A program made the position numbers and the translations under genes. Below are positions 3 to 64,000 of a DNA stretch of 64,000 nt, one piece after another; position 1 is the stretch's first letter, and each line of letters starts with the position of its first letter. The notes under the pieces were generated by a model that was not told the origin of the DNA, made no database searches, and worked only from the letters and a program-made list of their open reading frames with translations. Source of the stretch: Fidelibacterota bacterium (GTDB taxonomy: Bacteria; Fidelibacterota; Marinisomatia; SCGC-AAA003-L08; JACNLC01); NCBI GenBank assembly GCA_013204025.1, contig JABMOW010000107.1, positions 1-64,000 of the forward strand, given 5' to 3'.

Positions 3-78
<76 letters not shown>

Positions 79-52228: not shown

Positions 52229-52501
52229 ATGAAAGTTCTTTCTGTAAACCAATTCAGAGCAAACATCAAGACTCTGGTAGATCAAGCCATCGCGGATCAT
52301 GAACCGGTAAAAGTGACCAGAAGAGCCGGTCAAGATTTCATTATTGTTAGCGCCGAAGACTGGGATCGGGATCAGGAGACGCTGTATGTCATGCAGAATT
52401 CCTCCATTATCAATCAGATCCGAGAATCGATTTTGACTCATGATGGTGGTACGGGATATGCCCCCACTCAGGAAGAGTTGGATGAGATCAATCGTATTTG
52501 A
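52229..52501 (+). CDS. Phd/YefM-family antitoxin
   Basis: 90 residues. The N-terminal Phd/YefM DNA-binding fold is clear: VLSVNQFRANIKTLVDQAI, then PVKVTRRAGQDFIIVSAEDW. The C-terminal half should wrap the toxin. AAAGGAAAC precedes the ATG, and a palindromic operator lies just upstream. It overlaps the toxin gene by 20 bases, so the two are coupled. Confidence 0.93.
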   Translation: MKVLSVNQFRANIKTLVDQAIADHEPVKVTRRAGQDFIIVSAEDWDRDQETLYVMQNSSIINQIRESILTHDGGTGYAPTQEELDEINRI

Positions 52502-52751
52502 AGGCAGTACGTGGCTGAAACATGAAGACCTGCGGGCAAAAGACAAGGTGCTCCATAAAAACCTGTGTAAAATTTTGAAAGAAATGCAGCGTGGAAATCC
52601 GGCGACGGGCACGGGGAAACCGGAACCACTCAGACATAGCCTATCGGGACTGTGGTCACGACGACTGTCAAAAAAGGATCGGTTGATTTATAAATTTACA
52701 GATACCTCCATCTACATATTTGCCATCGGTGGACATTACGATAGCCTATAA
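52482..52751 (+). CDS. YoeB/Txe-family mRNA-interferase toxin
   Basis: 89 residues from the ATG at 52482, inside the antitoxin gene and with GAAGAG upstream. RelE-fold YoeB features: FEGSTWLKHEDLRAKDK (canonical W-x-x-Y/H), GTGKPEPLRHSLSGLWSRRL and RLIYKFTD, ending IFAIGGHYDSL. In YoeB the His-Tyr near the C-terminus is part of the active site (HYH-type); here it reads GHYDS. It cleaves ribosome-bound mRNA and is neutralised by the YefM-like partner. Confidence 0.9.
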   Translation: MRSIVFEGSTWLKHEDLRAKDKVLHKNLCKILKEMQRGNPATGTGKPEPLRHSLSGLWSRRLSKKDRLIYKFTDTSIYIFAIGGHYDSL

Positions 52752-61643: not shown

Positions 61644-62211
61644 TGTGAAAATCTTTTTTGAGGATCGAAAATAGTTTATAATCGAAATAGTGCCCTTTAA
61701 TGAACAGGTAGTCTCTCAACAAGCCTTCTTCCTGCATCCCCACATTTTTCATCACCCTCTGCGAGGGGATGTTTTCTACCCTGGCAATGGCCTGAATACG
61801 ATGCCACTGGAGCGTTTCAAAGCCATATTTCAATAATACACTTACCGCTTCAGTCATGATACCCTTACCCCAATAATCTTTATGGAGCACATATCCCATT
61901 TCTGTCCGGCCGTGGGAAAGCGTAAAGTTGTGGAATCCGCACATCCCCACAAATAAATTGTTTTCTTTCAACGTAATGCCGAAATCCAGTTGATCGTAAC
62001 GCCGATCAGACTCAATGCAGCGATCCAGAAAATCGGCTGAATCCTGTAGAGATCGATGTGTGTCCCAATGCATGTACTTTGTAACATCAGGATCAGAAGC
62101 GTAATTAAAAATGGATTGTGCGTCTTTTTGTGTGGGTAACCGCAACAACAGATTGTCAGATTGGATGACGGGGTGTGAGTCGATCACTTCCTGTAAGCGC
62201 TCAGGGGTCAT
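61633..62211 (-). CDS. GNAT-family N-acetyltransferase (RimJ/RimL-like)
   Basis: 192 residues. RimJ/L-type GNAT: RLPTQKDAQSIFNY at the start, then a beta4 region MGYVLHKDYWGKGIMTEAV containing the acetyl-CoA pyrophosphate loop (GKGIMTE), and IQAIARVENIPSQRVMKNVG with GMQEEGLLRDY. The acceptor may be a protein N-terminus or a small amine. It overlaps coaBC at one end and the glutaredoxin gene (ATGA) at the other. Confidence 0.9.
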   Translation of the reverse strand: MTPERLQEVIDSHPVIQSDNLLLRLPTQKDAQSIFNYASDPDVTKYMHWDTHRSLQDSADFLDRCIESDRRYDQLDFGITLKENNLFVGMCGFHNFTLSHGRTEMGYVLHKDYWGKGIMTEAVSVLLKYGFETLQWHRIQAIARVENIPSQRVMKNVGMQEEGLLRDYLFIKGHYFDYKLFSILKKDFHSEP

Positions 62212-62459
62212 TGCGATTGAACCAGTTCGTCTAACTTTCCGCTTTGGTTTAATGCAAATAAGTTGTCAAATCCCCCGATGGGTTTGTCATTGATGACGAT
62301 TTGAGGGACGGACCGCCCGCCGGTGATTTTTTCCAGTTCATCTCGAGACATTTCCAACTCTTCAATGTTTATTACATCAAATTTAAGTCCCTTTTCTTCC
62401 AGTACTCGTTTTGCCCGTTGACACCAGGGGCACCAATTTGTGGTATACATTTTGATCAT
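62208..62459 (-). CDS. Dithiol glutaredoxin
   Basis: 83 residues. Active site CPWC (Cys10 and Cys13), cis-Pro region SVPQIVIN and the GSH-binding GGFDNL. It reduces disulfides using glutathione or an analogous thiol. It is first in the minus-strand operon with GNAT, coaBC and the DUF1232 gene, and it is divergent from the selenocysteine peroxiredoxin across 146 bases, which suggests it could be that enzyme's reductant. Confidence 0.95.
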   Translation of the reverse strand: MIKMYTTNWCPWCQRAKRVLEEKGLKFDVINIEELEMSRDELEKITGGRSVPQIVINDKPIGGFDNLFALNQSGKLDELVQSQ

Positions 62460-62562
62460 ATTTATTCCTTAATTTGAGACGAAATTTACAGAAGGTTCAT
62501 CGTCTCCCGCGAAAAATTCAAGTTGGCAGCAGGAGATTCGTATTAACTTCAACCGTCACTAA

Positions 62563-62587
62563 AATATCAAATTGATCAAATATCAAA
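62563..62587. promoter_or_regulatory. Direct repeats in the glutaredoxin/peroxiredoxin intergenic region
   Basis: AATATCAAA occurs at 62563-62571 and 62579-62587, flanking the palindrome TTGATCAA (62572-62579). The element lies 18 bases before the peroxiredoxin start in the shared divergent region and could be an operator or AT-rich promoter element. It is only a repeat observation. Confidence 0.35.
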
Positions 62588-62605
62588 ACACTTGAAGGAA
62601 TGATA

Positions 62606-63061
62606 ATGTTATTAAAACCCGGAGAAAATGCCCCTGCATTTATCCTACCCGATGCGGACGGAAACGACGTTTCTCTCACTGATTTCGCAGGCAAAAAAGT
62701 AGTATTGTGGTTTTTCCCCAAAGCAAGTACGCCCGGCTGAACCGTTGAAGGACAGGGATTCCGTGATGAATTCCAAACATTCGAAAAACAAAATGTACAC
62801 ATTATCGGTGTATCAGCAGACCCGCCTGCCAAACAAAAAAAATTCGCTGAGAAGCAGAATTTTCAATACCCCATGCTCTGCGATGAATCCCATGAAATGC
62901 TTGAATCCTATGGCGCTTGGGGATTAAAAAAATTCATGGGCAGGGAATACATGGGCATCAACCGGATTAGCTATGTGATTGATGAAGGTGGTAAGATTGA
63001 ACACGTTTTCGAAAAAGTGAACACCAAAACTCACGCACAGGATGTATTGGTGCTACTATAA
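62606..63061 (+). CDS. Selenocysteine peroxiredoxin, BCP/PrxQ type, with in-frame TGA at the catalytic position
   Basis: A single reading frame of 151 sense/recoded codons is interrupted only by TGA at 62738-62740. Read as selenocysteine it gives the active-site sequence KASTPGU-TVEG at residue 45, the exact position of the peroxidatic Cys45 of E. coli BCP (TPGC-T). The frame around it is a normal [48 protein letters not shown] and [11 protein letters not shown]. The resolving Cys50 is absent (Gln), and the only Cys is Cys92, so a monothiol/glutaredoxin-type cycle is plausible. Start chosen at 62606: GAAGGA is 6 bases upstream; an ATG at 62600 has no spacing. A hairpin starts right after the TGA. 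The reaction would be peroxide reduction. Alternative: an inactivated gene, but a lone stop at the catalytic codon with the rest intact argues against it. Confidence 0.8.
62743..62778 (+). promoter_or_regulatory. Candidate bacterial SECIS stem-loop
   Basis: Directly downstream of the TGA, ATTC (62758-62761) pairs with GAAT (62768-62771) around the loop CGTGAT. A lower stem GGA (62750-62752) with TCC (62772-62774) and GTT (62744-62746) with AAC (62776-62778) adds further pairs, with bulges. The loop starts 21 bases after the TGA and has G in its second position, within the described bacterial SECIS range (16-37 bases). The stem is short and AT-rich, so this is a weaker call than the TGA itself. 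Confidence 0.5.
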
Positions 63062-63115: not shown

Positions 63116-64000
63116 TCAATTTCGAATGCACACTCCAATTCTCAGGCTTTGGTTTTGCGCATTAACTGGTGCAAAGACATTGGTGAATCCATGATAATAT
63201 TGGATATCCAGAGACAATAGAGAGCCCATGGGTATCCGTAGATTGGCAAAGAGTCCTGCATCTTCGTAATTCCCATTGAAATCATGTTGCCAATCCGATC
63301 CTGAAATAGATGCGGTCGCTGATTGACATTCGCCATCTGGATCGCAAATCGTTGTCTCGCTGTCAATGGTCAGAAGATAACCCAATTCGGCCCCCAGTAG
63401 TAATTGAGACAAACCGACCGTTAACGGTTTTGCCAAATACGCCCGAAAATAATTCAGATGAAAGTCAATGGAAATGGTGTTGTCAAAAAAATAATCCATG
63501 TCCTTCATTGCAAATCCAAACCGTGCGAACCTGAACCCGGTGACTAGATTCGTTCTTTCAAAAAGATTGGATACTTCTACGCCAATATCAAATCCGGGTA
63601 ATGAAGAATACGCGCTTTTGTTAGATTGATACCACAGATTGGACATTAGATAACTTCCAAACCAAGACACATTGTCCTTCCCCATAAAAGACAACAATTT
63701 CTGTGGATTATTTAATGATAAGGCAACTTCCTTATAATATGTTCCATTACGGGGGCTGAATACTTCAGATGACGATTCCAGGGCATAATTATAGCGGATA
63801 TTGAAGTATTCGGACATTTTTAAAAAAGAAGGATCTTCGGTTAATATGGAAAACAGGCTAAACAACCCGGCGAGATTATATCCGTATCCGGAAGTATAAA
63901 TGTCAACTTGACCATCAGTATCGATCATATGACCTTTTCTGACAAAGAATGCATTCATTATTCCTATCTCGCTTCCCTGATACAAGGTTACCGATTCGTC
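63116..64000 (-). CDS. Outer-membrane beta-barrel-like protein, 5' end beyond the window
   Basis: At least 294 residues are visible; the frame stays open to the window edge and the codons before the apparent TTG at 63985 read on (ESVTLYQGSE), so the true start is outside. Alternating hydrophobic/polar segments, many aromatic residues and ending LSLDIQYYHGFTN...LRIGVCIRN are typical of a porin-like barrel, but the C-terminus does not end in Phe. No family is recognised. Function unknown. It converges with the peroxiredoxin gene. Confidence 0.6.
   Translation of the reverse strand, partial: DESVTLYQGSEIGIMNAFFVRKGHMIDTDGQVDIYTSGYGYNLAGLFSLFSILTEDPSFLKMSEYFNIRYNYALESSSEVFSPRNGTYYKEVALSLNNPQKLLSFMGKDNVSWFGSYLMSNLWYQSNKSAYSSLPGFDIGVEVSNLFERTNLVTGFRFARFGFAMKDMDYFFDNTISIDFHLNYFRAYLAKPLTVGLSQLLLGAELGYLLTIDSETTICDPDGECQSATASISGSDWQHDFNGNYEDAGLFANLRIPMGSLLSLDIQYYHGFTNVFAPVNAQNQSLRIGVCIRN

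Follow-up and report, generated by a model that had tools for sequence, protein, structure and literature searches.

The window, which is the whole stretch of 64,000 nucleotides that was analysed, contains a divergent gene pair. One gene, on the forward strand, encodes a peroxiredoxin of the BCP/PrxQ type whose reading frame is interrupted by one TGA. The other gene, on the reverse strand, encodes a glutaredoxin. The features of this locus are as follows:

62208 to 62459, reverse strand: gene of a glutaredoxin with the motif CPWC, the head-to-head neighbour (PF00462, 73.8 bits)
62460 to 62605, no strand: intergenic region of the divergent pair, 146 bp, a possible shared control region
62594 to 62599, forward strand: probable ribosome-binding site, a GAAGGA run in the sequence
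62606 to 63061, forward strand: gene of a BCP/PrxQ-type peroxiredoxin, a predicted selenoprotein of 151 codons, assigned by profile scores, structural model and Foldseek
62738 to 62740, forward strand: TGA, the probable selenocysteine (Sec) codon for residue 45, the peroxidatic position (P-x-x-x-T-x-x-U; TGA also present in relatives)
62756 to 62773, forward strand: SECIS-type hairpin, with the stem 62756-62761 / 62768-62773 and the loop 62762-62767, CGTGAT
62879 to 62881, forward strand: TGC codon for Cys92, the protein's sole Cys apart from position 45

The frame begins with the ATG at 62606 and ends with the TAA at 63059-63061, and the in-frame TGA is its sole interruption. When this TGA is read as U, the local sequence is PKASTPG-U-TVEGQ. 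The NCBIfam equivalog model of BCP, NF006960, matches residues 3-149 with 185.6 bits, which is above the family cut-off of 140, and PF00578 matches with 128.6 bits against a cut-off of 26. Because the NF006960 match covers residues 3-149, the two flanks of the TGA form one domain. The preliminary description had claimed a single in-frame TGA with intact coding sequence on either side, and the 151-codon frame with its one domain bears this out. It had also proposed alignment to the PrxU and BCP families. PrxU of Eubacterium acidaminophilum, which PMC13188914 cites, is a peroxiredoxin whose peroxidatic residue is Sec, as is predicted for the window protein. However, the window protein scores 31.5 bits with the PrxU model NF040737, whose cut-off is 270, and passes the BCP model instead; the curated models place it with BCP/PrxQ and outside PrxU.

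The AlphaFold2 model of the window protein, built from an input alignment of 38 rows, has a mean pLDDT of 97.5. Its top Foldseek matches are mostly BCP or PrxQ by name, and the top matches among solved structures include 9a4d (BCP model), a Burkholderia alkyl hydroperoxide reductase, Mycobacterium BcpB, and Xanthomonas PrxQ. The PxxxTxxC/U motif and its Arg are present as P38, T42, U45, and R120, the last of which we take to be the catalytic Arg; T42 and R120 are invariant across all 38 rows. PrxQ/BCP of Xanthomonas campestris (5iiz, 5iph, 3gkm) has the same fold as the model (TM 0.90) and the same active-site frame, but has a peroxidatic Cys where the window protein would have Sec. The residue that corresponds to Ala81 of the window protein is its Cys84, a Cys in 5iox that is replaced by Ser in the C84S mutant 5iph. 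Escherichia coli BCP is of the Cys45/Cys50 type. It belongs to the same family and has its peroxidatic residue at the same position 45, whereas the window protein differs in having a putative Sec45 and a Gln50. Gln at the Cys50 position had been noted before, and it is found in the window protein, so that the loss of Cys50 is real.

Matches at E 1e-20 or better were found in 193 of the 245 genomes of the phylum, with paralogs counted. Among the 150 matches listed, 130 loci (including that of the window) were read, and the other 20 carried no in-frame stop. Codon 45 is TGA in 102 of the 130 loci and Cys in 28 (23 TGT and 5 TGC), a count in which G009, with a TGA at codon 28, and G063, whose frame ends early at a TGA, were scored as Cys. 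Relatives with Cys at residue 45, for which a search had been suggested, are thus present. The TGA-bearing relatives range down to 52% identity, with one at 38%, and the remainder of their frames is open. That 102 of the 130 loci share a TGA at precisely codon 45 excludes chance. Within the window's family, three of the four other genomes have an ortholog of 67-69% identity with one TGA each, and the fourth, which is 98% complete, gave no match at 1e-15. Two Cys-form frames of genus f13 g29, L154 (G063) and L157 (G050), end at a TGA after about 125 residues, where 151 is usual; they are perhaps truncated or frameshifted. A scan of named genomes found Cys at the site in all of the best 80 loci; one of its two search patterns demanded Cys, so the scan says little about Sec forms outside the phylum.

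Both of the usual resolving sites are empty in the window protein, which has Gln50 and, at the alpha-3 site, Ala81, and so has neither resolving Cys of the 2-Cys BCP/PrxQ type. Tallied by ungapped offset from position 45, Cys50 occurs in only 6 of the 102 Sec forms, Cys81 in 50, and Cys92 in 33. Twenty-two of the 102 have none of these three residues, and 15 have no further Cys at all, so the clade does not depend on a resolving Cys within the same polypeptide. In the proposed mechanism, the selenolate of Sec45 would attack a hydroperoxide and become a selenenic acid. Since positions 50 and 81 are Gln and Ala, the oxidized selenium would then be resolved either by Cys92 or by an external thiol, which may be that of the divergent glutaredoxin together with glutathione, or that of a thioredoxin. 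The most likely function, as deduced from the sequence, is that of a selenolate peroxidase that is recycled by glutaredoxin and glutathione or by thioredoxin.

A strong competitor, to which we would give only slightly less than even odds, is that Cys92 serves as a substitute resolving residue. It would form an intramolecular selenenylsulfide that is reduced by thioredoxin, and the glutaredoxin would be a mere neighbour. The frequencies of Cys92 and Cys81 among the Sec forms argue for this pathway, as do the position of Cys92 at the end of strand 90-92 of the AlphaFold2 model, which it closes, and the name of NF006960, thioredoxin-dependent thiol peroxidase. The 22 Sec forms without any of the three cysteines and the 15 without any further Cys argue against it, as they indicate that an internal resolver is dispensable.

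Recycling through glutaredoxin and glutathione can be considered in the light of the neighbourhood. The divergent glutaredoxin is the only PF00462 match that was found in the draft genome. A head-to-head glutaredoxin accompanies 21 of the 102 Sec loci vs none of the 28 Cys loci, as read in flanks of about 1.5 kb that are shorter at contig ends. All 21 pairs belong to the window's order, in which 31 Sec loci were read. In the window's family, f5, none of the nine Sec loci shows the pairing in flanks of this length. The genome of the window contains two PF04107 genes (glutamate-cysteine ligase family), so glutathione synthesis may be possible in this organism. Within the flanks of about 1.5 kb of the 102 Sec loci, a GNAT gene was found at 2 loci, CoaBC at 21, and the gene at 63116-63985 of the window at 2; these genes are not general partners of the Sec form of BCP.

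The hairpin downstream of the TGA extends from nucleotide 19 to nucleotide 36 in a numbering that starts at the U of this codon, and its loop starts 21 nt past the TGA. RNAalifold applied to the 102 Sec genes gave a 6-bp stem at +19..24/+31..36 with a score of -5.3. Control alignments, in which synonymous codons were shuffled between sequences, averaged -0.06, and none of 200 reached -5.3. No consensus structure was obtained from the 28 Cys genes. Within the Sec genes, 597 of 612 stem cells pair, and this number falls to at most 375 once the 3' arm is slid by 1-6 positions. The pair 21-34 is A-U in 54 genes, G-C in 24, and G-U in 20, and the pair 22-33 is U-A in 73 and C-G in 25, indicating compensation. 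The loop reads CGKGAY in 100 of the 102 Sec genes, with one more ending in N, and 101 of the genes have a G at the first or second position of the loop. A G in a small apical loop is described for bacterial SECIS elements in the passages available from PMC1088965.

All six stem pairs are formed in 96 of the 102 Sec genes vs 5 of the 28 Cys genes. Fewer than six are formed in the other six Sec genes, three of which have 1-3 of the six pairs, namely L105 (G031), L108 (G030), and L156 (G075); their SECIS may use another register. When 22 segments of 54 nt along the gene were scanned in 101 of the 102 Sec rows, those whose site falls on residue 45, a consensus fold beyond the shuffles appeared only in the 3 segments that hold the stem. 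Folded alone, the hairpin of the window shows no unusual stability (z -0.47 and 0.14). The mean single-sequence folding was -9.3 in Sec genes vs -7.5 in shuffles, and -6.2 in Cys genes vs -5.4 (sd 0.28), which is also a slight excess. Two segments upstream of the TGA likewise folded better than their shuffles. Single-sequence stability is therefore not specific. Because the shuffles ignore kinship, more weight falls on the sliding of the 3' arm and on the contrast between Sec and Cys genes.

One could attribute the TGA to a sequencing error, or take the gene for a decaying pseudogene, as the assembly is a draft of 163 contigs that is 88% complete. The conservation of the TGA at the same codon, in frames that are otherwise open, refutes this explanation, and the compensating changes that keep the stem paired also speak against it; its probability is negligible.

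The draft genome of the window contains the whole set of Sec genes that was looked for. One tRNA-Sec match exceeds the Rfam cut-off (65.2 bits), and ARAGORN reports it as tRNA-SeC with the anticodon tca. SelA (448 bits) adjoins SelB, which scores 350 bits against a cut-off of 242. SelD (379 bits, over its cut-off) lies at C11:61611-62537 and has its own in-frame TGA in SSGAGUACKLG. SelD of the Sec type usually carries its own TGA. The profile searches for SelB and SelD covered the window genome. A further gene of this genome with a PF00578 domain, C94:99566-99931, has a TGA in a UxxC motif (FFAPWUPVC) and is a probable selenoprotein. SelB and Sec-tRNA would decode the TGA at codon 45 of the peroxiredoxin gene with the aid of the downstream hairpin. 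The reassignment of TGA to an ordinary amino acid such as Trp, which would likewise explain why a conserved protein has a single in-frame TGA, is refuted by its use as a stop elsewhere (16 of the 33 mechanical ORFs of at least 250 aa within the window end at TGA) and has next to no chance, given also that the 28 homologs without the TGA carry Cys at codon 45 and that tRNA-Sec, SelA, SelB, and SelD are all encoded in the genome.

SelA was found in 89 of the 102 genomes with a Sec form, and 9 of the remaining 13 have a tRNA-Sec match of more than 60 bits. The last four, which have neither SelA nor a strong tRNA-Sec, are drafts of 55-87% completeness, and two of them have weak tRNA-Sec matches. 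Taken together, SelA or a tRNA-Sec above 60 bits is present in 98 of 102 Sec-form vs 12 of 28 Cys-form genomes (Fisher p 8e-10, uncorrected for kinship). Genus f13 g29 consists of 24 genomes of 0.4 to 1.0 Mb, and all 15 of the 15 orthologs read in it are Cys forms. SelA was found in none of the 24 genomes, and a tRNA-Sec over the cut-off in none of them. Among the 45 weak tRNA-Sec matches listed, the 30 that were read, with every genome represented at least once, are all tRNA-Ser or tRNA-Leu according to ARAGORN. Judged from these sequences, the genus is a natural control for the reading of Sec.

These findings suggest that the window gene encodes a Sec-containing peroxiredoxin of the BCP/PrxQ type, with a probability of about 0.95, a figure that excludes the choice of reductant. 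Both Sec incorporation and the peroxidase activity of the protein are predictions from sequence. The preliminary description had held that Sec replaces the peroxidatic Cys of a BCP and that the organism has a Sec machinery. The second claim was confirmed by locating selA, selB, selC (tRNA-Sec), and selD in the draft genome, and the first gains support from this machinery, from the TGA in 102 of 130 loci, from the covarying hairpin, and from the Cys in 15 of 15 orthologs read in the genus without SelA and tRNA-Sec.

The evolution of the site was considered on a quick maximum-likelihood tree in which position 45 was masked, the root was not inferred, and many forks are weak. The U/C label requires five changes on this tree, and the starred branches alone force only two. 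The tree is consistent with a single acquisition of Sec and four reversions to Cys, which would have taken place in f13 g29, in two genera of f18, and in one f12 genome. In the two f18 genera, all four Cys genes (G119, G120, G126, G127) retain the complete stem of six pairs, apparently as a relic of a SECIS element; SelA is present in three of the four genomes, and a strong tRNA-Sec in the other. The f12 Cys gene, G037, has 4 stem pairs. Six pairs are also formed by a fifth Cys gene, G054, which belongs to genus f13 g29 and whose genome has neither SelA nor tRNA-Sec. In Table 1 of a 2006 survey (PMC1794560), as far as the available part goes, peroxiredoxin has five Cys-to-Sec events and no Sec-to-Cys events; the phylum tree is compatible with as many as four Sec-to-Cys events.

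A broader hypothesis can be proposed tentatively, and we hold it to be rather less probable than its negation. In the phylum, the Sec form of BCP would have arisen once and reverted several times, with one genus losing SelA and tRNA-Sec and two genera keeping a hairpin relic. In addition, in the window's order, the Sec form, which in several lineages is without the usual resolving Cys sites, would pair divergently with glutaredoxin and act as a selenoperoxidase that depends on glutathione and glutaredoxin, which would make it a bacterial equivalent of glutathione peroxidase.

Peroxiredoxins of this kind have been described since 2005. The available passages of the Sargasso Sea study report a Sec peroxiredoxin (COG1225, TXXU) as the second most abundant known selenoprotein family, with 43 genes (PMC1088965), and those of the GOS study report 253 Sec peroxiredoxin sequences (pfam00578, TxxU; PMC2398784). 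Corresponding passages of a 2022 review list the family as COG1225 (Bcp) with TxxU (PMC9312934), and those of a 2026 review as PF00578 with TxxU and the PxxxTxxU motif (PMC13188914). As described there, these proteins share with the window protein the COG1225 assignment (in the 2005 and 2022 papers; pfam00578 in GOS), the TxxU motif, and Sec in place of the peroxidatic Cys, and no basic difference was found in a comparison by description. Therefore, the window gene belongs to a known kind and adds a member to it. The Sargasso and GOS sequences are given no phylum in the passages available, whereas the window gene comes with a genome, a machinery, and relatives. SAR406 is mentioned in the available part of PMC5029168 only under orphan SelD. 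Abstract openings and passages of the open-access literature yielded no phylum placement of a Sec-BCP gene, no Cys series with a hairpin relic, and no pairing of Sec-BCP with glutaredoxin.

The finding of a Sec form of BCP is in itself expected biology. A gene caller that treats every TGA as a stop would truncate or overlook this gene in at least 102 of the 245 phylum genomes searched. The phylum offers a natural Sec-to-Cys series, with and without the decoding machinery, that helps to ask why a peroxidase keeps or drops selenium. A second BCP-like gene with a pair of the Cys45/Cys50 type (PRCTKEAC) lies about 4 kb from the Sec-BCP gene, just beyond the window (L031, C97:66864-67268). Within the window, a stretch without a large ORF contains, at 52440-52751 on the forward strand, the toxin gene of a type II toxin-antitoxin pair, whose product is YoeB-like (PF06769, 67.7 bits).
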